Shown here: positions 4,203 to 50,694 of the stretch, piece by piece
How positions within the stretch are numbered: the stretch's first letter is position 1
How the letters are laid out: every line of letters begins with the position of its first letter
DNA from: a virus
Direction: 5' to 3' (one strand)
Length of the DNA stretch: 52,485 bases
IMG/VR virus record: IMGVR_UViG_3300033145_000528
Location: 1-52,485 of that record
Translations under genes and position numbers: made by a program
Notes under the pieces: generated by a model
The model's database searches: none
Told to the model about the DNA's origin: nothing
Seen by the model: only the letters and a program-made list of their open reading frames with translations

Positions 4203-4888
4203 ACCCTAAAAGAGAACGTCAACGCCCATTCCATGCCTTCGAGGTATATCGTGATCTTGGATATGGACGCACATATAGGGCGGTAGCACGGCAGGTTGAT
4301 GCGTCCCCTGGTACTATATCTCATTGGGCAAAGGTTTACAAATGGGACGAGCGTATCAAAGAGAATGACATTATTGTGCAGCGGAAAAGGGATGCTGGGG
4401 CTATAATGCCTATTGACGATCCAGTCGCCAAGCGTCTTACAGATATAATGAACAAAATGGAGGCGATTATTGATAGTTGTTTCGTGAAAGAGCCTGGTGG
4501 TGATTTCTCGCTTAAAGATAGTCTTAAAATCACGAATGCAGAAGATTTGACCAAGATTATCGCCGAATACCGTAAATTCCTCGAAACCTACCATAAATTT
4601 GTTGCAGAATATATGCCTGATAAAAAAGGCAAAGACCGTTCTACAAAGATTGATAAACTAAACGTGTTTATGGGTGATTTGTCCCAGCAAGAGCGTATTG
4701 ATGTTATGAAGGGGATTGCAAATGAAAATGCCTCTGGAAGAAATAAGCAACCTGAGGGAAGAGTTTCGGAAGCAGATTATACAGAAGTACTTGAACGAGG
4801 GAATGAAGACAGACCTGGACGTACAGGAGTTTCTGGCAGCCCTGCAAATAGCGGTAGTAGGGACGAGGAGACTATGCGGGAATCCTGA
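4184..4888 (+). CDS. terS: Terminase small subunit (probable)
   Basis: A 234-residue protein whose N-terminal third has a TerS-type DNA-binding helix-turn-helix (YRAVARQVDASPGTISHWAK, about residues 31-50) followed by a helical, probably oligomerising region. It lies directly upstream of the large terminase, the usual place. Start ATG follows GGGGAGGA. The last 55 or so residues are charged, low in complexity and out of frame with the terminase N-terminus that overlaps them by about 167 nt, so this tail is probably disordered and shaped by the overlapping gene. Confidence 0.75.
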   Translation: MPRYKLDPKRERQRPFHAFEVYRDLGYGRTYRAVARQVDASPGTISHWAKVYKWDERIKENDIIVQRKRDAGAIMPIDDPVAKRLTDIMNKMEAIIDSCFVKEPGGDFSLKDSLKITNAEDLTKIIAEYRKFLETYHKFVAEYMPDKKGKDRSTKIDKLNVFMGDLSQQERIDVMKGIANENASGRNKQPEGRVSEADYTEVLERGNEDRPGRTGVSGSPANSGSRDEETMRES

Positions 4889-7262
4889 CCACGTATCACA
4901 GTTCGGGGTTGTATCCGACATACTCAGAGAAGCGGTGACATATTACGTTATATGGGCGTGCAGGTCAGGTAGTAAGACATTTCTGTTTGGCGGGCTGGAT
5001 TCGTGGGTAAAGAGTTGTAGTCGCCACCATTACGAGACCCGCTTATTAGGTGGGAGTAAGGATCAATCATTATTGTCTTACAAAGCCATGAGTAGGTTTC
5101 GTGACGAAACTGACCCGTTGAATACTCGCTTGGATGGGGATATTCTACAATCACGGGCAACATTCCTAAACAAATCGGAAGTGTCAATCCTTACTGCAAG
5201 TATGACTGCGGTACGTGGGCCACATCCTCAATCACTTAAACTTGATGAAGTAGATGAGATAGATGAGGAAGTATATGAAGCCGCCCTCTCGCAACCAATG
5301 GAAAATTTTGGTTACAAAGACTCACTGGGTATGTTTTCCACGAATCACAACGTCATGGGGCAAATGGATAAAGCGCTTGTAAACGCAAAAGAGCATGGCC
5401 ACGGTATCTACAAATACTGCATTTGGGAGGTCATGGCATCGTGCAGGGATTATAACTGCTCTACGTGTCCCCTTTCCGGGATATGTCCTGGCAAGCAAAT
5501 GAAAGAAGCGGATGGTTATTATTCTGTGGGGGCGTTTATTAAGAAACTCGAAACACTCTCCTATTCCATGTTGGCACGGGATTGGTTATGTATAAAAGTA
5601 GGTCTCGGGGACACGGTGTATGAGCAGGAATGGGATGAGGATACAAATCTATGTAGCGTAGCATTGCAACAAGCCCCTGTGATATTGAGTGTTGACTTTG
5701 GTGGTGTATCGCCGTTTTCTGTAGGTGTATGGCAGGAAGCACCAGATAGACTTGGCGGAAAAGGTACGTGGATACGGGTTACCGAATTGTATATGTGTTC
5801 TGAAGGGACGTATGAAGGGTCTGATAAAAAGAAGGAAACATCTGTTACCAATGCCCAGGTCATCGCACGTGCATTAAAAGCCCCCTGGGCTAAATTAGTA
5901 ACCGAAATAATACCCGACAATTCACGTCCAGACAGCATTCAAGAGTGGAGAGAGGCATTTCCACATGCTAAAATGACTATTGTGAAAAAAGATATAGATG
6001 GCATGATAGACCGTGTTAAATCGGCTCTGAAGCCTATTACTGGCACGCCTAAGATGTTGATTAATCGTATCTGTATGCACTGGCGGCAAGAGGTGCTGAT
6101 GTATGCTGTAAAGAATGATAAGCCAGTAGATAAAAACAATCACTGTTATGACGATCAAACTGAGATACTAACTGAATATGGGTGGAAACTATTTAAGGAT
6201 TTGGATAGGCAGGAAAGGGTAGCGTCCCTTGACAATGAGCGCAATCTTATATGGGCGGAGCCATCGGAGTATGTTGATTATGATTATAATGGTGATATGC
6301 TCGAATATTCTAATCGGCATTTCGGATTCTGTGTAACACCTAATCATAATATGCTTGTCGTATCACAATTCGATGCAAAGAAAACTAAGCAGTATAATCC
6401 ACGATTTGTACCTATTGAGGATATTGGGAATGCGGTGGGAAAAGAGAATAAGGGTAAGCGTAATAGAGCCTCGGTATGGTGGATACCTATGGTATGTAAT
6501 CCCCCTGAAGTTAAAGCCGAAAAGCTGATTGATGGGTATTTTCTCGGATTCTGGTTGGCAGAGGGATGTAAGTCTATTAGCGGTTTTGGGGCTAAATATG
6601 TCCATATTGACAACACTAATATACAATTCTTAGAAAAGGCTACTGCTTCTGTAGGGCATTCTCAGAAACCATACAGGACGGATTCGGGCTGTTATAGGGT
6701 GAGCATTCGTAGTGATGAGTTGTATGATATGCTTCCGAAACAGCGTAGTTGGGAAAAGCGGATTCCAAGATGGTTCATGGAAAACGCATCCACAGCGCAG
6801 TTAAAGCGATTGTATCTTGGTATGATGGATGGGGATGGATGTTGGCAGAGTGCGAGTAGCCACTATAATACTTGTAGTTACGGGTTAGCATCTGACTTTC
6901 AGGAACTTCTAATTAGAATTGGTTTGTATGGAACACTCAGAAAAATAGGTGATGCTGGTACTATAAGTTATATAAGGGGAAGAAAAGTAATATCGAAGCA
7001 TCCGCAATATAGGGTAATTATAAATATCAATAACTCAATCTACAAAGCTATACGTGGTGAGAAACTTAAACGGATTAAGTACTCTGGGAAAATCTATTGT
7101 GTAGTTGTAGAGCCATATCATACTATCATGGTGAGGCGTAATGGTAGTACGATGTGGTGCGGGCAGACAATGGATGAGACTGGTTATTTTGCACTGGCTA
7201 AGTTAGGTGAGGAAGAGGGTGTGTATGTTGGGACTACTAAACATGATGTTATGCCAAGATAG
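4722..7262 (+). CDS. terL: Terminase large subunit with in-frame intein
   Basis: An 846-residue precursor; removing the intein leaves 505 residues, normal for a packaging ATPase. The ATPase domain shows a variant Walker A (ACRSGSKT) and Walker B (LKLDEVDE). The nuclease domain shows VDFGG and the EIIPDNS region, and its third acidic motif is restored only when the exteins join: NNH plus TMDETGYFA. The intein takes up residues 475-815. I chose ATG 4722, 8 nt after AAGGGG; TTG 4716 and ATG 4803 (after GAGGGA) are alternatives. The overlap with TerS is unusually long. Confidence 0.93.
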   Translation: MKMPLEEISNLREEFRKQIIQKYLNEGMKTDLDVQEFLAALQIAVVGTRRLCGNPDHVSQFGVVSDILREAVTYYVIWACRSGSKTFLFGGLDSWVKSCSRHHYETRLLGGSKDQSLLSYKAMSRFRDETDPLNTRLDGDILQSRATFLNKSEVSILTASMTAVRGPHPQSLKLDEVDEIDEEVYEAALSQPMENFGYKDSLGMFSTNHNVMGQMDKALVNAKEHGHGIYKYCIWEVMASCRDYNCSTCPLSGICPGKQMKEADGYYSVGAFIKKLETLSYSMLARDWLCIKVGLGDTVYEQEWDEDTNLCSVALQQAPVILSVDFGGVSPFSVGVWQEAPDRLGGKGTWIRVTELYMCSEGTYEGSDKKKETSVTNAQVIARALKAPWAKLVTEIIPDNSRPDSIQEWREAFPHAKMTIVKKDIDGMIDRVKSALKPITGTPKMLINRICMHWRQEVLMYAVKNDKPVDKNNHCYDDQTEILTEYGWKLFKDLDRQERVASLDNERNLIWAEPSEYVDYDYNGDMLEYSNRHFGFCVTPNHNMLVVSQFDAKKTKQYNPRFVPIEDIGNAVGKENKGKRNRASVWWIPMVCNPPEVKAEKLIDGYFLGFWLAEGCKSISGFGAKYVHIDNTNIQFLEKATASVGHSQKPYRTDSGCYRVSIRSDELYDMLPKQRSWEKRIPRWFMENASTAQLKRLYLGMMDGDGCWQSASSHYNTCSYGLASDFQELLIRIGLYGTLRKIGDAGTISYIRGRKVISKHPQYRVIININNSIYKAIRGEKLKRIKYSGKIYCVVVEPYHTIMVRRNGSTMWCGQTMDETGYFALAKLGEEEGVYVGTTKHDVMPR
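6144..7166 (+). other. Intein with LAGLIDADG endonuclease in TerL
   Basis: A 341-residue intervening sequence. The N-terminal splice block starts at Cys (CYDDQTEILTEYGW), block B has the TxxH signature (TPNHN), the endonuclease has two dodecapeptide motifs (GYFLGFWLAEGC and LYLGMMDGDGCW) with acidic residues in place, and the C-terminal block has HTIMVRRNG and WCGQ before Thr. The last residue is Gln rather than Asn, the penultimate one Gly rather than His, and the +1 residue Thr. Insertion lies next to the catalytic Asp of the terminase nuclease, so packaging needs splicing. The endonuclease looks intact and probably drives homing. Confidence 0.92.
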
Positions 7263-10704: not shown

Positions 10705-11091
10705 ATGGCTAAAACATTATTTAAGTTACATTCGTCCACATTCAATGATCCCTATGCAGTACTGGAGTTTACTGCTGCTACTGATTATACAGCAGGAGAT
10801 ATGATAGCTCTGGAGGATATTGTAGGGGTTATTGTAAACACAGTAAGTTCTGGTGGCCAGGCTGTACTTGTTTATGAGGCTGCGTGGATTGATGTTCCGT
10901 GTGCGGAAGTAACGTCAGGTAATCTCGCAAATTACGCCGAAGGGTGTAAAGTGTATTTCGATGCCGCTGATGAAGAGGTTAATACCGATTCCAGTGGTAA
11001 TACACTATGCGGAATCGTAAAGGTCCAACCCGCAGTAGGGGATGAGACCGTTGAAATTCATCTCATGGGTGCCCTCGGCATCGTATCCTAA
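10705..11091 (+). CDS. Head decoration protein, DUF2190 family
   Basis: A 128-residue protein with the DUF2190 pattern: an opening strand, YTAGDMIALEDIVGVIV, an AWIDVPCAEV strand, a KVYFDA turn and GNTLCGIVK near the C-terminus. Members are small capsid cement proteins placed just before the major capsid gene, as here. AAGGGAAAG precedes the ATG. Confidence 0.8.
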   Translation: MAKTLFKLHSSTFNDPYAVLEFTAATDYTAGDMIALEDIVGVIVNTVSSGGQAVLVYEAAWIDVPCAEVTSGNLANYAEGCKVYFDAADEEVNTDSSGNTLCGIVKVQPAVGDETVEIHLMGALGIVS

Positions 11092-11102: not shown

Positions 11103-12155
11103 ATGAGAGGCAAAATTATCTCTGATTGGGCGCTTGTCGAGAAAATGGGTGGTATTGATAACCCTAAAGTATCCCATGCGCTTAGAGGGGCGTTAAACCG
11201 CTTCCTCGTAGAACCTAACAGTACACCATACAAGGCTGCGGCACAGGCATTCGCGAATACAGGTGATGTGAATACCGCACGGTCAGCCCTCATCCAGGCT
11301 TTCGGCACATCAGGTGATTTTCCCACCAGTGTGCTTGAGGTTTTGGATAAATATCGTCTCACTACCTATTTTGACACCGGTTACGAGCAAATATTTGACA
11401 TGATGGACATGAGAGGGTCGAATCGTAATGGATTTGATATTCTTGATGTTGATTCTGGTCTTACGTTTGCTAAAGTACCCGTAGGTCAAAAAGCCCAAAT
11501 ATACAAGATGTCTGGCACAAAAGCACATGTCACTCTTGATCAGTATGGTGGTGGGCTTGGTTGGTCGAGACTTTTGTTCGATGATAAGGAATATTGGACT
11601 ATTGAGGATAATGCTATATTCTTTAGGAATAAAGCGTACAGCTCCAAAGCTCAAAATTTCTATACTTTACTCGATAATGTAGACGCAACCTATGACCTTG
11701 CGTGGCAGGCTGTAACTGGTTCTATACCCGATACCAATGAAAATTATGTGCCTATCCGTGATATTAACACAATCAACAAAGCGTGTGAGAATATCTTGAT
11801 ACGGCTCAAAGACCTTGGTATGGGCATAACACCTGCAAGCGAATTTATCATACTTACTCCTATCCAGCTTGTCGGCAGAATACGGAGAGCATTGGGTATG
11901 GTGCAACAACCATTTGCAGGCAGTACCACGCAATTGAACTACAATGTTAGACCAATATACACTATGATGACGGAATCCAGCACCGAATACTATGTGGTAT
12001 TCCCCAAGCACAAAATCAAAGGGGCTATCCGTCAGGATTTGACTATATTCAGTGACTTTGACATTGAGTCTTACACTGATATAGCAGTCGGCTGGCAACG
12101 TTATGGTGGTGCAATTGGTGAAACTAAACAAATCGTGCGTTGCTCAACATCTTAA
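11103..12155 (+). CDS. Major capsid protein
   Basis: A 350-residue protein directly after the decoration gene, behind AAAGGAGAG. Its length, place and mixed sheet/helix sequence fit a HK97-fold capsid protein of the type without a long N-terminal delta domain. A strong hairpin follows the stop, as is common after highly expressed capsid genes. Confidence 0.85.
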   Translation: MRGKIISDWALVEKMGGIDNPKVSHALRGALNRFLVEPNSTPYKAAAQAFANTGDVNTARSALIQAFGTSGDFPTSVLEVLDKYRLTTYFDTGYEQIFDMMDMRGSNRNGFDILDVDSGLTFAKVPVGQKAQIYKMSGTKAHVTLDQYGGGLGWSRLLFDDKEYWTIEDNAIFFRNKAYSSKAQNFYTLLDNVDATYDLAWQAVTGSIPDTNENYVPIRDINTINKACENILIRLKDLGMGITPASEFIILTPIQLVGRIRRALGMVQQPFAGSTTQLNYNVRPIYTMMTESSTEYYVVFPKHKIKGAIRQDLTIFSDFDIESYTDIAVGWQRYGGAIGETKQIVRCSTS

Positions 12156-12227: not shown

Positions 12228-14645
12228 ATGTTAAGAATGACTGATATACCAAAGAAGAGACGAATATTGACACCCAAAGAAGAGGCTATCAAAAATGAGG
12301 CGCAGTCCAAGAAAACATTAGTCACTATGAGCAGTTTGCCCAAAAAACCACGAGGTAGAGTACCGTTAAATCAACAGGTGTTCGTAGTGCCCACGCCATC
12401 CAAGATCCTCAGCATGAGTGATTTGACTAAACGCAGAAAACTCTTACGACATATAGAAAGACAAGCAAGAAAGAACCGTGCAAATACACATAGTTATGGT
12501 GCGGTTACCATGGGTCCAAAAATATTTGCCGATTATGTTTCTAATGGCGCATGGAAAGGCAGAAGATGTTTTATTGTTGGGGGAGGTCCAAGTATTAAAA
12601 ATCTGGACTTGAGTTTATTGAAAAGCGAGTTAACAATCGGCATTAACAGGGCATATGAGTTATTAGATCCGAGTATACTGTTTGGAGTGGATGGTCAGAT
12701 GTGGGGATGGGTAGAACAAGGCAAATTTGGTGAGGAATCCAAGCGTAAATTTAGGGAATATAAGGGATACAAAGTCTGGATGGCGTTGCATAAGATGTTC
12801 CCATCGGACTTTTATCTTATAGAGGTGGATGACAATGCAGGATATAGGATAGGGACAACTAACAGGTTAGCATTCAAGAACAACGGCGGATACGGAGCAA
12901 TTAATTTGGCAGCAGCGTTAGGAGCCAATCCCATATATTTACTTGGCTATGATATGCGGGGTACCAAGCAGGGTAAACAGAAATGGTGGCATGACGGGTA
13001 TCCAGTCGATTATGGCGAGGATGTGTATAAAGGATATATTAAAGAAATAAACAATTTCGCGCCAATATTGAGAAAAGCAGGGTTCGAGGTTGTTAATCTT
13101 AACCCTAAATCAGCTTTGAAATGTTTTACATTTGGTAAATATAGTGAAGTTGTGAAGAAGAAACCCGTTATACCAGTGGATGCTATACAATCAATGGAAA
13201 GACCCGGCACGATTACAGCTATTACACCCACAGGGGATAGACCATTGGCATTCGCACTTTGTAAACACTGGATGGAAATGCAAACACAGAGGCCTGACCA
13301 ATGGATAGTTGTGGACGACGGGAAGGTGCCATTGAAGCCATCCCCCATGATGGACTATATACGGCGAGTACCAACATCACGAGATCCAAAGCATACATTA
13401 AGTGTTAATTTAAAGACCGCTTTGCCTCATATTAAGGGGAGTAAAGTACTGATTATGGAGGATGACGAGTATTATGCACCAAACTACATAGAAGCTATGG
13501 CAAAAGAGCTGGACACCTCTGAAGTGGTTGGGATAATGCAGGCAAAATATTACCATTTGCCGTCAGGCGGGTATGTGCAGATTGGCAACACAGCACATGC
13601 TTCCCTTGCCCAGACTGGGTTTAAAAACTCGTTCGTGCCGAAGTTACGTCAAATAATCGACCATGACAAGAATATCGACTATATAGATATGCAAATGTGG
13701 TATAAGTCTATGGCGGAGCATAAAGCCCATTTGTTTTCGGATAAGCAGAAATCCTTGTACGTCGGGATAAAAGGAATGCCAGGCAGGAAAGGTATAGGAC
13801 AAGGACACAACCCAAAATTGTATGGTAAGCACATTGACAGCGATAGAAAAGTGTTGAGAGAATGGATGCCAAATGATTATAAGGTGTATTTGGATGTGCT
13901 TAACGGCAAACTTAATGATACGAATTGTGCCACATACTTTCCGCAAATAACTGGGATAACAGTTTGCTGCAATACCAAAGACCTCATACAGAGGTCGTAT
14001 GAGTCGATAAGAAAATTTCATCCAGATATGCCCATAATCATAGTTGACGGGTCTAACACAAACAACCCATGCGCAAAATATGTAATGAGCTTAAAATCCG
14101 ATATTACGACCGTGATACAAACCAGATATAACATAGGGCATGGAAGGGGCATGTGCTTGGGTATAGATCACGCCAGAACACCATATGCGTTGATATTTGA
14201 TAGTGATATTGAATTGTTAAAGTCCCCTGTAAATGATATGATGGCTGAGATGGAGCCCGATACATTCGGGATAGGCTACATAGAGCACACTGATTTTGAT
14301 GGATATGGCATCGGAGCCAGGGTAGGTCATATAGGGGAGGATATGCCCTACCTACATCCATATTTCCAATTGATTTGCATCGCTAGTTATCGTAAATATC
14401 ATCCATATGTACATCATGGGGCACCATGTTATCTTACCATGCTCGATATTTACAAGCGGGGACTGTCGGATAAGGTGTTGAAAAGTTTTCCCGGGTTGGG
14501 CCACAGCGCTGGAAAAGATTATGGATGGGAGGGTAAACCAAGAAAGTATGTACGCCACGATGTGAGAGGGACAAGAAATGAACGTAAGAAACGTGGATTG
14601 CAGGAAATAGAGGGAAATTGGGTAAAAAATAAAGGATTGATATGA
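12228..14645 (+). CDS. Three-domain glycan protein: MptE/DUF115-like domain plus two GT-A glycosyltransferases
   Basis: An 805-residue protein. After a basic N-terminal tail (1-90) comes a Rossmann-like domain with FIVGGGPS (115-122) and LFGVDGQMW, resembling the DUF115/MptE-like family linked to glycosyltransfer. A second domain starts at ITAITPTGDR (~329) and has MEDDEYY (410-416) as a DxD-type metal site. A third starts at ITGITVCCNTKD (~574) with IIVDGSN and FDSD (657-660), a GT2-like fold. It probably transfers one or more sugars to a virion or cell-surface acceptor. It starts the six-gene glycan cassette. The start codon has only a weak ribosome site. Confidence 0.75.
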   Translation: MLRMTDIPKKRRILTPKEEAIKNEAQSKKTLVTMSSLPKKPRGRVPLNQQVFVVPTPSKILSMSDLTKRRKLLRHIERQARKNRANTHSYGAVTMGPKIFADYVSNGAWKGRRCFIVGGGPSIKNLDLSLLKSELTIGINRAYELLDPSILFGVDGQMWGWVEQGKFGEESKRKFREYKGYKVWMALHKMFPSDFYLIEVDDNAGYRIGTTNRLAFKNNGGYGAINLAAALGANPIYLLGYDMRGTKQGKQKWWHDGYPVDYGEDVYKGYIKEINNFAPILRKAGFEVVNLNPKSALKCFTFGKYSEVVKKKPVIPVDAIQSMERPGTITAITPTGDRPLAFALCKHWMEMQTQRPDQWIVVDDGKVPLKPSPMMDYIRRVPTSRDPKHTLSVNLKTALPHIKGSKVLIMEDDEYYAPNYIEAMAKELDTSEVVGIMQAKYYHLPSGGYVQIGNTAHASLAQTGFKNSFVPKLRQIIDHDKNIDYIDMQMWYKSMAEHKAHLFSDKQKSLYVGIKGMPGRKGIGQGHNPKLYGKHIDSDRKVLREWMPNDYKVYLDVLNGKLNDTNCATYFPQITGITVCCNTKDLIQRSYESIRKFHPDMPIIIVDGSNTNNPCAKYVMSLKSDITTVIQTRYNIGHGRGMCLGIDHARTPYALIFDSDIELLKSPVNDMMAEMEPDTFGIGYIEHTDFDGYGIGARVGHIGEDMPYLHPYFQLICIASYRKYHPYVHHGAPCYLTMLDIYKRGLSDKVLKSFPGLGHSAGKDYGWEGKPRKYVRHDVRGTRNERKKRGLQEIEGNWVKNKGLI

Positions 14646-15226
14646 AAACGCTATGTATTGTAACAAGATGCCACCCTAAAAGACCAAATATGCTAAAAAT
14701 ATGTGTCGGTTCTGTTAAAAGGCAAACAGGCAACGATTATACCCATTTATTGGTGAAATCAGACAAAACTGAGAATGGGTATGGGGTGGCTAAGGCAAAT
14801 GAAGCTATAAGCACCATTAAAATAAAGGACGCTAAGTACGTTATGGTGCTTGATGATGATGACTTTTTTATAGATTACACTTTTGTAGATACTCTTAAGA
14901 AAATAGCCGATAAATCAGCACCAGATATTGTAATGTTTAAGGGCGTTATACCGCCATACGGTATATTGCCTCAGGGTGAATACTGGAAGAAACCACCAGT
15001 GAGGGGGAAAATAGGGTCATTTTGTTTCGCAGTGAGTATGGAGTTGTGGAATAAGTATGTAGAGTTTTGGCGTCCGAGTGATGGCTATGTTGCTATGAGC
15101 GATTTTACGTTTATCAGGGAATGTTACAAGAATACAGAAAGCATAACGTGGATGGATAAAGTAGTAGCGTGTACGCAATTTGGAGCAAGTAGGGGGAGAG
15201 GCGAATGTCAAATTGCTCAGTCGTAA
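14642..15226 (+). CDS. GT-A glycosyltransferase
   Basis: A 194-residue protein with an N-terminal Rossmann-like start (TLCIVTRCHPKRP), a strand leading to an acidic metal motif LDDDDFF (70-76) and a later FCFAVSMELW segment typical of GT2 enzymes. Shorter than usual GT2 proteins (about 230-300), so it may be minimal or act with its neighbours. Overlaps the previous stop by four bases and the next gene by 22. Confidence 0.75.
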   Translation: MKTLCIVTRCHPKRPNMLKICVGSVKRQTGNDYTHLLVKSDKTENGYGVAKANEAISTIKIKDAKYVMVLDDDDFFIDYTFVDTLKKIADKSAPDIVMFKGVIPPYGILPQGEYWKKPPVRGKIGSFCFAVSMELWNKYVEFWRPSDGYVAMSDFTFIRECYKNTESITWMDKVVACTQFGASRGRGECQIAQS

Positions 15227-15846
15227 TACCTACATATAGGCGATTAGGTACGCTTGAAGAGGTACTAAAAGGGTGGTTGGAGCAAACCGATGATGTATGG
15301 TTGGCGGATTCGTCCAATAAGTTTGAGACCAGTTTGCCCATCAATCATGTGAGATTTAATCCCGACCCTGGTAATATGAATAGACATGCAATAGCGTTAT
15401 TGACTCACGGAGATTTTGTCATTAAGGCGGATGATGATGTCGTGCCATTGCCAGGACTTGGCGAGGATTTAGTAGCTGGGTCTGTTAAGAACGATGGGAT
15501 AGTTGGTATACATGGCAGGACATTTAAGGGTGAGAATTACTACGGCGATACGGTATGCTATTCAGCGGCGAAGATTGATAAGCCGATTAAGGTGGATTTT
15601 GTTGGTATTATAACATGCTCACCCAGAAAATATCTGGCATTTGATTTGAAGGGGTGCCTGACGCCAATTGAGGATGTATTCTGGCAAATGGGGGCATTCC
15701 CGAATGTGAATAAGTACGTGGTGCCTACCCGAAATTATCGGCAATTACTCACGTCAGAAGACAATAATTGCTTGTTCTATAACAAGAAGGCACGCAAACA
15801 GCGTATGAGGTATTGTCGTGAATGGTACAGGAGTATGCACAGATGA
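15205..15846 (+). CDS. GT-A glycosyltransferase
   Basis: A 213-residue GT2-like protein opening with SVVIPTYRRLGTLEEVL, the standard nucleotide-sugar-binding start, and carrying KADDDVVPLPG (DDD at 76-78) as metal-binding DxD. The end is strongly basic. GGGGAGAGG is a good ribosome site. Third glycosyltransferase gene of the cassette. Confidence 0.82.
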   Translation: MSNCSVVIPTYRRLGTLEEVLKGWLEQTDDVWLADSSNKFETSLPINHVRFNPDPGNMNRHAIALLTHGDFVIKADDDVVPLPGLGEDLVAGSVKNDGIVGIHGRTFKGENYYGDTVCYSAAKIDKPIKVDFVGIITCSPRKYLAFDLKGCLTPIEDVFWQMGAFPNVNKYVVPTRNYRQLLTSEDNNCLFYNKKARKQRMRYCREWYRSMHR

Positions 15847-16376
15847 CAGCAGAAGAATACATAACACAGCATTGGATACCAAATAGGACTTGGGAACATC
15901 TTGGGTGGGCAAAACATCAGAAAAGGCTAAGACTGTGTACCGAGCCGTTAATAGGTACTACATTCGCTGATGTCGGTTGTGCGTGTGGGCACTCCACCAA
16001 GATAATGCAAGGATTTAAGAACGGAACATGGCATGGGGTAGACTTCTCGGAAACTGCCATAAAAATGGCAAGGGAATTGTTCCCCGAACTGACATTTTCT
16101 GTGGGACTTGATGGGGCGATATTTGATTCAATAGTCTGTTCTGAAGTTATTGAGCATGTGGAGGATAATGAAGCGTTTATAGGTTCTTTGATAAAAGCAA
16201 CAAAACATGTCCTACTATTAACCACACCGGCAACCAATGTTGACGATCCTGGACACCTGAGGTTGTATAATTTGGGTATGCTAACCGAATTAGTACAAAA
16301 ATACGGGGATTTCAATATTAGGACTGAGGATGGGTATTATTACATCATTGTTAGGAAGGATGAGCAAAATGGTTAA
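15843..16376 (+). CDS. Class I SAM-dependent methyltransferase
   Basis: A 177-residue protein with motif I DVGCACGHS (43-51), an acidic strand end GVDFSE, and SEVIEHVED (motif IV region), as in methyltransferases acting on small molecules or glycans. Within a sugar cassette it probably O-methylates a sugar. I chose ATG 15843, which overlaps the previous stop (ATGA), over 15822. Confidence 0.82.
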   Translation: MTAEEYITQHWIPNRTWEHLGWAKHQKRLRLCTEPLIGTTFADVGCACGHSTKIMQGFKNGTWHGVDFSETAIKMARELFPELTFSVGLDGAIFDSIVCSEVIEHVEDNEAFIGSLIKATKHVLLLTTPATNVDDPGHLRLYNLGMLTELVQKYGDFNIRTEDGYYYIIVRKDEQNG

Positions 16377-16911
16377 TCGTAATGCCAAGAAATTATTGTT
16401 TGCAGTAGCGGACGCCTGCGAAGAGGTAGGATTGGACTATTTCCTTTATGGGGGCACATGTCTGGGCGCAGTAAGGGAAAAGCGATTTATAAAAATAGAT
16501 AGGGATGTGGATTTCGCCTGCCTATTAGAAGACCTCGCACCGGTTGTGCTTGAATTGAACAAAATACTAATGAAAGCAGGGCTGGATACTGAAATTGTTG
16601 ACCATCGTCATTTTGCTAAATGGGATGGGAGCGTGTATGCTATGAAGTTTGCGGGATTTGGGGAACACGGGGAGATAGCCGCATTCAAACGGCACGGGGA
16701 TAAGCGTGTTATACCATCACATGCGGATAAATACTGGTTGGTGCATAATGCACGTTTCCTTGAGGAACTCAGAACTATAAAATTTTATGGGCGCGCATTC
16801 CATGTTCCTAAGGATACAGATGGGTTCTTGACTGAGAAGTATGGGGATTGGAGAACGCCGCATACGAAATTTTATAACGTATCAAAATGTAGAATGGATA
16901 AACTACCGTGA
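16369..16911 (+). CDS. LicD-like phosphotransferase/nucleotidyltransferase-fold protein
   Basis: A 180-residue protein with the LicD hallmarks: YGGTCLGAVRE (27-37) and DRDVDFA (44-50), matching the GGTxLGxxR and D-x-D pattern of the LicD/fukutin family. These enzymes move a phospho-alcohol such as phosphocholine from a CDP-activated donor onto a sugar. The partner that makes a CDP donor is encoded next door. ATG 16369 overlaps the previous stop (ATGGTTAA) and follows AAGGAT. Confidence 0.8.
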   Translation: MVNRNAKKLLFAVADACEEVGLDYFLYGGTCLGAVREKRFIKIDRDVDFACLLEDLAPVVLELNKILMKAGLDTEIVDHRHFAKWDGSVYAMKFAGFGEHGEIAAFKRHGDKRVIPSHADKYWLVHNARFLEELRTIKFYGRAFHVPKDTDGFLTEKYGDWRTPHTKFYNVSKCRMDKLP

Positions 16912-17345
16912 TATTTGGTTATACTGCAGGTGCATACGACCTATTTCATGTTGGTCACTTGAATATATTACGTACTGCCAAATCCATGTGTGACAGACTG
17001 ATAGTGGCGGTATCAACGGATGAGCTGGTAGAATTATATAAAGGGCATAAGCCAATTATACCATTTAAACAAAGGCTTGAAATAGTCAGGGGTATATGGT
17101 ATGTGGATAGTGTCGTACGCAGGAATGAACGGAACATATACAAGGAATGGACAAGAATACATTTCAATAAAGTATTTGTGGGGGATGATTGGGCGGATGA
17201 TAAGCAGTGGAATGAATGGGAAATGCAGCTTAAAGAGTATAGTGTGGATATTGTCTATTTACCCAGAACACCTGATATATCAACTACTACGATTATCCAA
17301 ACTATACTTCAACACAAGCGAAAACACCATAAGGTAAGGAGATAA
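16908..17345 (+). CDS. Cytidylyltransferase (TagD/glycerol-3-phosphate type)
   Basis: A 145-residue nucleotidyltransferase with the HxGH signature (HVGH, residues 14-17) in GAYDLFHVGHLNIL, VSTDELV, and the ISTT-type end motif (DISTTTI). These enzymes form CDP-glycerol or similar from CTP. Start is GTG overlapping the previous stop (GTGA). Together with the LicD-like protein it suggests a phospho-alcohol decoration on a phage glycan. Confidence 0.88.
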   Translation: MIFGYTAGAYDLFHVGHLNILRTAKSMCDRLIVAVSTDELVELYKGHKPIIPFKQRLEIVRGIWYVDSVVRRNERNIYKEWTRIHFNKVFVGDDWADDKQWNEWEMQLKEYSVDIVYLPRTPDISTTTIIQTILQHKRKHHKVRR

Positions 17346-17348
17346 ATA

Positions 17349-17615
17349 ATGGCAGTTAAGACAAAACTTGACCAAGCATGGAATACGAATGAGGTAATAG
17401 CTAATGTGTTTGAGGTAAGGGCACAGGCGGAGAATGTATATAATGTGCTTCAGGAGTCTATTGCAAGGATTAATGAAATTACAGCGGGTGCAAGCTTCAG
17501 TGATGTAGATGATGAGATTAAAAGTGAAGGTCGGGATATTATACAAATCTTGAATCAGGCAAAACAGGCATTTGACGGACATGCCGAATTTCTTGCATGG
17601 AGGCAGCCAAAATGA
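17349..17615 (+). CDS. Hypothetical helical protein
   Basis: An 88-residue acidic, probably all-helical protein (AENVYNVLQESIARINEI). No family recognised. AAGGAGA precedes the ATG and the stop overlaps the next small gene (ATGA). It lies between the glycan cassette and the decoration genes. Confidence 0.6.
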   Translation: MAVKTKLDQAWNTNEVIANVFEVRAQAENVYNVLQESIARINEITAGASFSDVDDEIKSEGRDIIQILNQAKQAFDGHAEFLAWRQPK

Positions 17616-17692
17616 TATGGATAATACTACTTGTATATTTAATAGTAACTTTATTCTTTTGGTCGCTTTGTGTAGTAGCAAAGGATGAATGA
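17612..17692 (+). CDS. 26-residue single-pass membrane peptide
   Basis: The whole peptide is one hydrophobic segment (IWIILLVYLIVTLFFW) with a short charged end (AKDE). ATGA overlaps at both ends tie it to its neighbours, which supports translation. Function unknown; it could be a small holin-like or membrane-anchoring peptide. Confidence 0.5.
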   Translation: MIWIILLVYLIVTLFFWSLCVVAKDE

Positions 17693-19140
17693 TGGCACTC
17701 AGTATCACAAGACCAGCAAGTGATATAATTGTTACGGGGGATTCTTCAGATATATTCGAGGATATATGGACTGAAGACCAAGCTCAAGGATGGGGCGTTT
17801 TTACAAGGCTTAGTGATGGTCAATACCATAGTACCGAGAGAATAGTATTCGGTGATGACACTACTCCTACAAACGTATCCGACATAGATTGCTGTGTTAA
17901 ATTTGGTGATGGTAAATATTTCTATACTAAGGATAATGCAAAAGTTACGCTTGGTGAGAAACTTGACAGCGAAACAGCTGTGAAGGGATGCTTTATAATC
18001 TTTGATGATTTGGGTGATGATGCAACAAGTATAGAAATGAAAGGTACGCTGAACCTGTATAATACATCTATTAAGCAAATATTGGTTGGTGGTGATATTT
18101 ATCATGCCCATCAACTAAACTTGAACGGTGCTGGTGAGTTCATTGATTCGCAGTTAAGATTTCTAAATGCAATAAATATTAGCACAGTATACACGACCTA
18201 TGGTATTCAGTATGAAGAATTTATTAACGGAATTAGAGTATTTGATGATATGACACTTACAAATTTCGTAAGTAAAAATATTAGTGCAGGTGCTTATAAT
18301 TTTGTTCCAAATAGAAGTGATATAACAGTTTATCTTGTAAACCCGAAAATAGGTGGTGGCAGCTTCTTCTATGCTTGGTCAATTATTCGTGCTGATACAT
18401 ATGTTAGAGGGTACTCAACTACTTTGACATGGCGTAGTGGTTCAACAATGCACGTAGATGCAAATACTTATCAGCAATTTCCATTTAATATTCATGTTAA
18501 AGACAAAGATGGGAATAATCTATCTGAAGTAACATGCTTGCTTGAAGATAAAGATGACGCTGAAGCTTTTAGTGTAGAAACGGCTGGCAGTGGGAAAATA
18601 GTCCAGCAATGGGTAAATTATAAAACTTATGATTCGACTAATTATACGACCGGTGGGGCAACAAAAACTCCGCATAAGCTCACCCTATCCAAAGCAGGCT
18701 ACGAAACGCTTGTAATAGATAATATCATAATAGATGAGGCAAAGGATTTGGAATTTGAACTATTGCCAGCATTGGCAGAATCAGATGTAAGATATGATAC
18801 GGACTTCGGGGAAAATAAAACTGGTAAATGTCATGTACCAGCTAAAGTCGATGTAAGGAAAGATGTAGATGTAGATGTTTCTGACAGTGGGCTTTTAGAC
18901 TTGGCGTCTGAAGACGATACAAGGTATGGCGTCACGTTTGATAATGAAACAAAAGTGGGAAACTGCGTACTTCCGCCTGAAGATAGAACAGCGGAAGGTG
19001 AAACATACGGAACTGATGGTACGGAATTTATAGGTACTTTTGTACGCAATGAGATAACTGGGGCAATAATAGAAGGTCAGGCTACAATAGGGGCAGTAGT
19101 CGGTCAAGCAACAGCAGGAATAGTGGTAGCAGGAGAATGA
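17689..19140 (+). CDS. Putative virion surface protein, beta-rich with C-terminal repeats
   Basis: A 483-residue protein, beta-strand-rich in its first ~270 residues (possible beta-helix), then an Ig-like/carboxypeptidase-regulatory-like region (NIHVKDKDGNNLSEV, ~residue 265), then two related ~50-residue repeats around VRYDTDFGENKTGKCHVP and TRYGVTFDNETKVGNCVLP. Such repeats occur in phage structural proteins. The coding sequence is more A/T-rich than its neighbours. Its place before the connectors suggests a head or neck decoration, perhaps the acceptor of the glycan. Confidence 0.5.
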   Translation: MMALSITRPASDIIVTGDSSDIFEDIWTEDQAQGWGVFTRLSDGQYHSTERIVFGDDTTPTNVSDIDCCVKFGDGKYFYTKDNAKVTLGEKLDSETAVKGCFIIFDDLGDDATSIEMKGTLNLYNTSIKQILVGGDIYHAHQLNLNGAGEFIDSQLRFLNAINISTVYTTYGIQYEEFINGIRVFDDMTLTNFVSKNISAGAYNFVPNRSDITVYLVNPKIGGGSFFYAWSIIRADTYVRGYSTTLTWRSGSTMHVDANTYQQFPFNIHVKDKDGNNLSEVTCLLEDKDDAEAFSVETAGSGKIVQQWVNYKTYDSTNYTTGGATKTPHKLTLSKAGYETLVIDNIIIDEAKDLEFELLPALAESDVRYDTDFGENKTGKCHVPAKVDVRKDVDVDVSDSGLLDLASEDDTRYGVTFDNETKVGNCVLPPEDRTAEGETYGTDGTEFIGTFVRNEITGAIIEGQATIGAVVGQATAGIVVAGE

Positions 19141-19467: not shown

Positions 19468-19935
19468 ATGGCTATAATAGTTGGAACAAATAGCTGGATA
19501 ACGGAAGCGGACGCTAACATCTACATGGGGAATAGACTTGATGCGGATAGTTACTGGATTGATGAGGAAGCCGATAATGAACGGGCGCTTATTACGGCGT
19601 ATCAATGGCTTAATGCGGGTAAATTTACGTTTCCGACTACAGCCACGCAAAAGATGAAAGACGCACAATGTGAGATGGCATTATTCTTGCTCCAACACCA
19701 GCCCGATATTGACCTCCGCATGGGATTGCAGGCACAGGGAGTGATAACAGCAGGGGTTGTTAAAGAGCGGTATAAGAATGATAACACGGTTGAGATGCCA
19801 ATACCACCTATCGTACAGAAATTACTTGCAGGCTATGATACGGATAAGCCGGTGTATTTGGTTAATATTGAACGTAACGAAGAAGAAGGCGTGAATTATG
19901 ACGCCTATGGAAATTTGCTCACAGACGCATCATAA
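19468..19935 (+). CDS. Head-tail connector, DnaT-like family
   Basis: A 155-residue protein opening with WITEADANIYMGNRL, typical of the small head-completion proteins often annotated as DnaT-like ssDNA-binding proteins, and with the helical QWLNAG segment that follows. It probably forms the first ring under the portal. GGAGG precedes the ATG. Confidence 0.7.
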   Translation: MAIIVGTNSWITEADANIYMGNRLDADSYWIDEEADNERALITAYQWLNAGKFTFPTTATQKMKDAQCEMALFLLQHQPDIDLRMGLQAQGVITAGVVKERYKNDNTVEMPIPPIVQKLLAGYDTDKPVYLVNIERNEEEGVNYDAYGNLLTDAS

Positions 19936-48026: not shown

Positions 48027-48740
48027 ATGATATATATTGATAATCGCACTGGTAGTAAAGAACTCCTACCTCTATTCCCGCCTGGCAATGCTGAACTTAC
48101 ACATTTGGAATATGCCGACTTCATGTTTACAGGGCATTCTGACATCGGGAACATTGTGATAGGTATAGAACGCAAAACCATCGGGGATTTTGTGAACTCC
48201 ATGTGCAGTGGACGTCTTAGTGGGCATCAACTTATCGGCATGTTAAACTGCTACCATTACCTCTACCTCGTCATTGAGGGTATATTCAGGGCTAACCCAC
48301 GAAATGGTATATTGGAGGTGTATAGGTATGGCGGATGGCAGGAATATACTGCGGGCAAGCGGCGATTCATGGCGAGGGATATTTGGTTGTTTATGAATAC
48401 GCTCCAGGTAATATGTGGGGTGCATTGTTATCATTGTCCTCGTGAAACTGATACTGCCCACTATATCATGGCGTTACATCATTGGTGGCAGAAGGAATAT
48501 AGGGAGCACAAAGGGCATCTACAACCACATACTGGGACTACGGTGGAGTTGAGTAGGCAATCATTGGTGAGACGGGTAGCAAGTCAACTGGATGGTATAG
48601 GATGGGGGAAAGCAAAGGCAATAGATCAGAAATTCGGAACTGTGGAAGAGTTGGTGATGGCGGATGAGGAAGAATTAATGGAGATAGGGGGTATAGGGAA
48701 GAAATTGGCACACGGGATAATTGCACAACTGAGGAGCTAA
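48027..48740 (+). CDS. ERCC4-type nuclease with helix-hairpin-helix
   Basis: A 237-residue XPF-family nuclease: IDNRTGSKEL (4-13), IGIERKTIGDFVNSM (catalytic ERK region) and a C-terminal double helix-hairpin-helix (LDGIGWGKAKAI and IGGIGKKLAHGI). These enzymes cut branched DNA; role here probably recombination or replication fork processing. AGGAGAAAAG leads. Confidence 0.9.
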   Translation: MIYIDNRTGSKELLPLFPPGNAELTHLEYADFMFTGHSDIGNIVIGIERKTIGDFVNSMCSGRLSGHQLIGMLNCYHYLYLVIEGIFRANPRNGILEVYRYGGWQEYTAGKRRFMARDIWLFMNTLQVICGVHCYHCPRETDTAHYIMALHHWWQKEYREHKGHLQPHTGTTVELSRQSLVRRVASQLDGIGWGKAKAIDQKFGTVEELVMADEEELMEIGGIGKKLAHGIIAQLRS

Positions 48741-50148: not shown

Positions 50149-50694
50149 ATGAAAGATGATGTTGTTGAATTAATAAGTGAAACGTATTGCGATGCTGGTT
50201 ATGTTGTAAGGGATGAGATAAAACGAAGTCATTTTGAGGACATGAAGGTAATTCCAATATCAATTAGTAATAAGGAGACTAAAGAATTTGCGGATAAACT
50301 TTCAAAAGGATTAGATGTCCAAGAGGGGCATACAATTCAAATAGTCTCTGCGTACACAGTTGGTGGTGATTATATAGGCTCTGTCAAAACAGCAAAGTTT
50401 CTATGTGAGAAGCTTGGTATACATCCTGAATTAGCAAAGCCTTCTGATTGTGTCTGCTCAATTGGGTTTTCTCGAAAAGATGGTAAATGGTATGGCTGGA
50501 GTCATCGAGCTATTTACGGTTTTAAGGTTGGCGATAAAGTTAAGAAAGGCGATTGTTGTGCCTCCTCAGGTTGGACGGATGAATATTTACACGAACATCC
50601 TGAAGAAGATTTATCATTGCCAGTTGGGTTTGTTGCAAAAAGCATATTTGATGCAAAGAGGATGGCTATTGCTTTTGCTGAATCTGTTAGTTAG
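50149..50694 (+). CDS. Conserved phage protein of unknown function
   Basis: A 181-residue protein with AYTVGGDYIGSVKTAKFLC, then SDCVCSIGFSRKDGKWYGWSHRAIYGFKVGD around residues 100-130 (landmarks, given in part), a pattern seen in several phage proteins of unknown role. AAAGGGAGAATGGG leads. It shares the operon with the genes that follow. Confidence 0.6.
   Translation: MKDDVVELISETYCDAGYVVRDEIKRSHFEDMKVIPISISNKETKEFADKLSKGLDVQEGHTIQIVSAYTVGGDYIGSVKTAKFLCEKLGIHPELAKPSDCVCSIGFSRKDGKWYGWSHRAIYGFKVGDKVKKGDCCASSGWTDEYLHEHPEEDLSLPVGFVAKSIFDAKRMAIAFAESVS

Follow-up and report, generated by a model that had tools for sequence, protein, structure and literature searches.

An exchangeable set of sugar-enzyme genes fixed behind the capsid gene likely coats the particles of an uncultured phage and its relatives

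Results

A six-gene cassette at 12228-17345 of the viral record IMGVR_UViG_3300033145_000528, the whole of which (52,485 bases) is the window analysed here and sets all positions, is probably this phage's version of a polymorphic virion-glycosylation locus, whose acceptor and donor alcohol we infer. In this virus and in dozens of uncultured relatives, an exchangeable set of sugar enzymes most likely coats the particle, comparable to the way bacteria swap capsule types, and the coat of the window phage is most likely a glycan that is methylated and carries a phospho-alcohol, for example glycerol phosphate. The enzyme classes, the gene order, the fixation behind the capsid gene, the variability of content and the co-occurrence of the LicD and cytidine triphosphate (CTP) transferase genes were read from the sequence. 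The record is probably complete, judged by its ends, because they carry a 114-bp direct terminal repeat, and the cassette is surrounded by terminase, capsid, cement, tape measure, tail and replication genes.

An earlier note on this DNA had described a six-gene glycan cassette with named enzyme families, and this description holds: all six open reading frames (ORFs) were found, on the + strand and with mutual overlaps of 4-47 bp, and the Pfam and PHROG matches agree with it. The cassette starts 73 bp downstream of the major capsid gene (11103-12155, +). Gene 1 (12228-14645) encodes a three-domain glycosyltransferase with GT42-like, GT-A and GT2 domains (Pfam Glycos_transf_2, E-value 1.4e-17). 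It is followed by a GT-A-type glycosyltransferase (14642-15226; Pfam GT2 0.0041 and GT43 0.019, PHROG glycosyltransferase 7e-5), a weak assignment with relatives in loci L049 and L141, and by a second GT-A enzyme, a GT2 glycosyltransferase (15205-15846; Pfam 2.7e-5). The S-adenosylmethionine (SAM)-dependent methyltransferase at 15822-16376 (Methyltransf_31, 2.3e-9) is probably a sugar O-methyltransferase, the sugar substrate being suggested by context. A LicD/FKRP-type phospho-alcohol transferase (16330-16911) and a TagD/Pcyt2-type cytidylyltransferase, hereafter the CTP transferase (16908-17345; CTP_transf_like, 1.2e-21), complete the set. Firm family matches exist for the methyltransferase, LicD, the CTP transferase and, within gene 1, the GT2 part.

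How tightly is such a cassette bound to the capsid gene? A capsid-alignment scan of IMG/VR that was not conditioned on sugar genes gave 74 loci, and the count was limited to the 63 contigs with at least 1.3 kb downstream of the capsid gene. A GT42-like gene lies close downstream in 62 of these, L128 being the exception, with a median gap of 80 bp (49 within 150 bp, largest 744 bp); wide gaps often contain a small cupin-like gene. The capsid proteins of the relatives are 37-74% identical to that of the window and occupy the same slot between cement and cassette. A separate scan for the GT42-like domain gave 63 loci, and among those without a window-type capsid gene but with upstream sequence, 18 of 21 have another capsid or virion-structural family 0.4-2.3 kb upstream (PHROGs 617, 247, 1328 and 1623). 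The three that do not are L083, which adjoins nucleotide-sugar genes, L085 and L090. Since capsid and lead gene came from independent scans, their link is not a search artefact.

Two observations touch on this neighbourhood. The cupin-like protein, about 120 amino acids (aa) long and strongly conserved, occurs in ten inserts (L112, L115, L054, L123, L126, L139, L141, L119, L003 and L007), and in several of these it separates the capsid gene from the lead gene. In Caulobacter phage CcrColossus (L020, 7980-12602) a sialyltransferase-like gene directly follows a tail gene and precedes further glycosyltransferases; tail modules may therefore have a comparable arrangement.

The stretch behind the capsid gene is hypervariable. 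It was measured in 35 loci in which both ends are visible, from the capsid gene to a homologue of the gene at 19468-19935 (+), which has no family match and is placed in the head-tail connector slot by position. These inserts range from 1.5 to 11.3 kb. Phage pairs at 60-70% capsid identity have 74% of their flanking genes in common (4 kb on each side) versus 10% of their insert genes (lead gene excluded), and the window and L003, at 74% capsid identity, have no insert genes in common. By analogy, this looks like the pattern of capsule and O-antigen loci. The earlier placement of the cassette between capsid and connector genes is accurate on its left, where the capsid gene is the direct neighbour, while on its right an 88-aa protein (17349), a repeat-rich beta protein (17689-19140) and a 105-aa protein precede the connector-slot gene.

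A Pfam census of 82 insert gene clusters gave mostly glycan enzymes: methyltransferases, GT2, GT9, radical SAM enzymes, sulfotransferases, GDP-mannose dehydratase, RmlD, NTP transferase and deacetylases. Strong variation of this kind, together with the signal-peptide-bearing or collagen-like proteins that some inserts hold, could also be read as a hot spot for unrelated accessory cargo, in which the sugar genes would have no common purpose; with the lead gene fixed and the census dominated by glycan enzymes, we regard this as very unlikely.

Would the enzymes act on the virion or on the cell? The cassette could alter the host envelope late in infection, masking receptors or excluding superinfecting phages, in which case its location in the head module would matter only for late expression. 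In bacteria, LicD- and TagD-type enzymes use lipopolysaccharide and teichoic acid precursors, and related phages are temperate in some hosts, both of which favour an envelope target. However, among 239 insert genes there is no GtrA, flippase, polymerase, acyltransferase or lipid-carrier enzyme. The slot is tied to the capsid gene and not to integrase or lysogeny genes, it recurs behind other capsid families, and late expression would come too late to protect the infected cell; we consider an envelope target unlikely. A simple hydropathy scan, which leaves room for single-span proteins, found a polytopic membrane protein (at least two hydrophobic spans) in 0 of the 239. The earlier proposal of the virion as target is thus the best-supported reading through capsid fixation, recurrence behind other capsid families and the lack of polytopic membrane proteins.

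The LicD protein scores 46.8 bits in Pfam against a curated cutoff of 22.6 (E-value 5.1e-12), and its start is probably 16369 instead of 16330, because its relatives begin at the residue aligned with Met14. Its profile matches FKRP in the PDB (4.5e-9) with the acidic motif aligned, and FKRP structures take the first 13 Foldseek places (2.4e-8) for its AlphaFold2 model (predicted local distance difference test score, pLDDT, 88); the FKRP structure matched was solved with cytidine diphosphate (CDP)-ribitol. The DxDxD motif (D57, D59, D61) is invariant in 16 phage relatives, so that a nucleotidyltransferase-like fold is combined with a conserved acidic metal motif. The CTP transferase has the HxGH motif and the RTxxISTT-like end of the TagD-type family: its HVGH and RTPDISTT align with 1coz. 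Against the PDB, Pcyt2 gives the better overall score (1.7e-18) and glycerol-3-phosphate cytidylyltransferase (8.5e-16) aligns over the full length.

Counted in loci not fetched through LicD, the LicD gene occurs in 7 of 7 loci with the CTP transferase versus 2 of 94 without it (Fisher p 2e-9), and the two genes touch or overlap in most loci that hold both. In L029 a deoxythymidine diphosphate (dTDP)-sugar set adjoins the pair. The same six-gene order next to other capsid genes, which the earlier note had proposed to look for, was not found elsewhere; behind a different capsid family, L076 carries a run of glycosyltransferase, methyltransferase, LicD and CTP transferase in the order of the window. 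That two genes suffice suggests that a host metabolite, most simply glycerol-3-phosphate, accepts cytidine monophosphate (CMP). The co-occurrence and the FKRP fold make the proposed pair, one enzyme producing a CDP-alcohol and the other transferring the phospho-alcohol, the best-supported reading. Glycosyltransferases could instead modify phage DNA, and phage enzymes that decorate modified DNA bases exist (Pyle 2024, as cited in PMC12619734). No base-hypermodification gene was seen among the scanned window genes, and the cassette sits among head genes. We know of no DNA modification that uses a CDP-alcohol and LicD pair, and DNA as the substrate seems to us exceedingly unlikely.

The N-terminal third of gene 1 is common to the relatives and the remainder is swapped: the C-terminal part is a methyltransferase in L003, a Nucleotid_trans domain (nucleotide-diphospho-sugar transferase) in L010 and a GT-A domain plus a GT2 domain (aa 577-679) in the window (13215-14645, +). 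The fixed part holds a GT42/DUF115-like domain (aa 97-304; 12516-13139, +), for which 53 relatives were aligned. In the AlphaFold2 model of residues 1-323, pLDDT is mostly above 90 across the domain, and the top Foldseek match is the sialyltransferase CST-II (4.6e-4, probability 1.0), followed by thiamin pyrophosphokinase and human sialyltransferases, at modest TM-scores of 0.34-0.45. A profile search agrees weakly (0.002), and gene 1 matches the PHROG 'alpha-2,3-sialyltransferase' (6.6e-25). Foldseek and profile together point to a GT42 fold of the CST-I/II type, and because the TM-scores are modest we call the modelled domain GT42-like rather than a sialyltransferase. Two stricter identities were rejected: a Maf/MptE-like domain (PF01973), with 19.7 bits against a cutoff of 34.6, and a sialyltransferase proper, with its modest TM-scores and no synthesis of a CMP-sialic acid donor in the locus. 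No gene for such a donor was found among the scanned window genes or in the insert census, in which 25 families are listed.

The N-terminal tail of gene 1 (12228-12437, +) carries a short motif three times, as LRMTDIPKK (aa 2-10), LVTMSSLPKK (aa 31-40) and ILSMSDLTKR (aa 60-69), and is a proposed docking tag. Lead-gene tails have up to three copies of the motif, a hydrophobic residue, any residue, [MTIL], [SR] and D, then basic residues. The motif was first spotted by eye and the regular expression was shaped on the same tails, so the following counts are post hoc: 35 occurrences in 29 of 59 non-redundant tails versus 0.5 expected from shuffled tails, and 9.3 per 1000 residues in tails versus 0.06 in the bodies of other insert proteins. 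In a held-out test, with a matrix built from close relatives only and a 99th percentile threshold, 10 of 46 distant tails exceeded the threshold versus 0.5 expected, and 1 of 395 control N-termini did. The tag appears portable, because a second insert enzyme opens with the motif in L113, L114 and L118, and similarly in L159. Lead genes behind PHROG 617 capsids have a different common N-terminal stretch, YRVRxGYxxH, and we propose that the N-terminal segments may be docking segments matched to the capsid type.

Besides the capsid protein itself, which has a sub-threshold Pfam match (Phage_capsid_4, 0.0023), possible glycan acceptors include the capsid cement or decoration protein (10705-11091, +; Phage_cement_2 1.5e-9, PHROG head decoration). 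At the right end of the insert, the 88-aa protein and the beta protein, with its short repeats GxYGxxGxEFxG (17349-19140 together, +), recur as the same pair in L048, L126 and L139 and are a candidate virion appendage and acceptor.

Which hosts carry such phages? In DNA searches for near and distant similarity, the window matched no cultured phage. The only cultured relative of its capsid protein is that of Microcystis phage MACPNOA1 (27%), and a profile search found no GT42-like gene in the stretch behind that capsid gene. Capsid relatives occur in bacterial assemblies of two Ca. Aminicenantes metagenome-assembled genomes (MAGs), Omnitrophota, Acidobacteria, Planctomycetota and Bathyarchaeota, the last including a relative of 70% identity over 165 aa in a short contig. 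The window encodes a peptidoglycan amidase, which makes a bacterial host the more likely. An Aminicenantes MAG has two contigs, of 189 and 415 kb, that each encode a tyrosine integrase and have identical repeats of 48-50 bp at a tRNA gene (tRNA-Phe, tRNA-Arg), with a GT42-like gene in between; this combination marks integrated prophages, distant from the window phage (capsid about 52%). On the two prophage contigs, C10 and C30 (L160-L169), the C10 repeats lie 90 kb apart, and its element is perhaps two in tandem; no PF07508 recombinase was found in the Aminicenantes genome.

Elsewhere in the window, 50149-50694 strongly matches Tad6, an inhibitor of type I Thoeris defence (PF25188, 5.7e-56). 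The large terminase (4716-7262) has an insertion of about 340 aa that holds a LAGLIDADG domain and is probably an intein; L014 shares it, and L003, L004, L007 and L012 lack it. A family A DNA polymerase (390-2954) is split, and its two ORFs (390-1637 and 2208-2954) flank a third of 121 aa; Rfam gave no match to an RNA intron there, and the gene is one ORF in L006 and broken at a different place in L005. An ERCC4 nuclease domain is joined to helix-hairpin-helix motifs at 48027-48740, a combination familiar from archaeal XPF-like nucleases.

Discussion

The cassette could work as follows. The lead enzyme, with its GT42-like domain and N-terminal tag, would dock onto the cytoplasmic capsid or procapsid, where it would initiate or anchor a glycan on one of the head proteins, be it capsid, cement or the 17689 appendage. 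The remaining glycosyltransferases would lengthen the glycan and the methyltransferase would cap its sugars. The CTP transferase would supply a CDP-alcohol, from which the LicD/FKRP-type enzyme would transfer the phospho-alcohol to the glycan. CDP-glycerol is the most likely donor, since no kinase is encoded and the host can provide glycerol-3-phosphate. The phage might gain in adsorption or in evasion of virion-binding agents. Acceptor, donor alcohol, docking and benefit are the inferred parts of this scheme. More tentatively, it could be viewed as a virion serotype locus of widespread uncultured tailed phages, in which a lead glycosyltransferase tied to the capsid gene docks on the shell through its array of N-terminal tags and begins glycans that exchangeable downstream genes then shape, so that near-identical capsids wear different coats, here one with a phospho-alcohol.

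Several points weigh against virion glycosylation. In all members it is a prediction from genes. The window shows no pathway for sialic acid or any other donor that the GT42-like enzyme could use, and the motif counts are post hoc. In the L107 insert four genes begin with a signal-peptide-like stretch, so other cargo can also occupy the slot. Bacterial LicD-type enzymes work on lipid-linked glycans at the cytoplasmic face, and for this reason the absence of membrane proteins is not decisive.

Is this an undescribed system, as the earlier note had it? Glycosylation of capsid and tail or tail-tube proteins by phage enzymes is established in mycobacteriophages (PMC12363180, PMC12619734), so virion glycosylation as such is known. 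Our searches of the open-licence literature turned up no hypervariable glycan locus linked to the capsid, no LicD/CTP transferase pair within such a locus and no mention of the tag, and nothing on point about DUF115 in phages or Aminicenantes prophages. The earlier note had missed the most unusual features: hypervariable content, a lead gene that stays fixed and a tag at the N-terminus.

Phage virion glycosylation is so far known from a few mycobacteriophages. If our reading is true, glycan loci linked to the capsid are a common feature of uncultured phages from little-known phyla and match bacterial capsule loci in their speed of variation, which would imply strong selection on the particle surface. 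There would then be a phospho-alcohol-decorated capsid and a docking motif, the latter testable with purified proteins, and the Ca. Aminicenantes prophages are inducible-prophage candidates for a direct test.

Compared with known systems, both likenesses and differences can be discerned. Mycobacteriophages Che8, Corndog and Myrna (Freeman 2023, as relayed in PMC12363180 and PMC12619734) likewise have phage-encoded glycosyltransferases placed to glycosylate capsid or tail proteins. In those accounts single glycosyltransferases are named essential, whereas here a fixed GT42-like lead gene behind the capsid is followed by a hypervariable multi-gene locus that adds donor synthesis, methylation and phospho-alcohol transfer; this comparison concerns the arrangement of the genes. 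The Maf flagellin glycosyltransferases (PMC11339370, PMC3426422) are also soluble, modify a self-assembling protein directly and belong to a related fold superfamily (MptE-like/DUF115), but the MptE-like match of the phage domain is below cutoff, the fold of this domain resembles CST-II most, and the window shows no nonulosonic acid pathway. The encapsulin cargo tag LTVGSLRR, which directs an enzyme to an HK97-fold shell (PMC5959871), is a similarly short hydrophobic-polar-basic peptide, a likeness by eye only that proves nothing; it is C-terminal in the cargo and the phage tag is N-terminal. The seroconversion systems of the gtr type differ by their polytopic membrane flippase or transferase, of which the insert genes have none. 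FKRP, whose donor is CDP-ribitol, has the same catalytic fold and acidic motif, while the phage LicD-type enzyme is a single small domain. Bacterial capsule and O-antigen loci with LicD or TagD (phosphocholine, glycerol phosphate) likewise hold variable glycan genes between conserved flanks and add a phospho-alcohol through a CDP-alcohol, whereas the phage inserts lie among head genes and dispense with polytopic membrane protein, polymerase and lipid carrier step.

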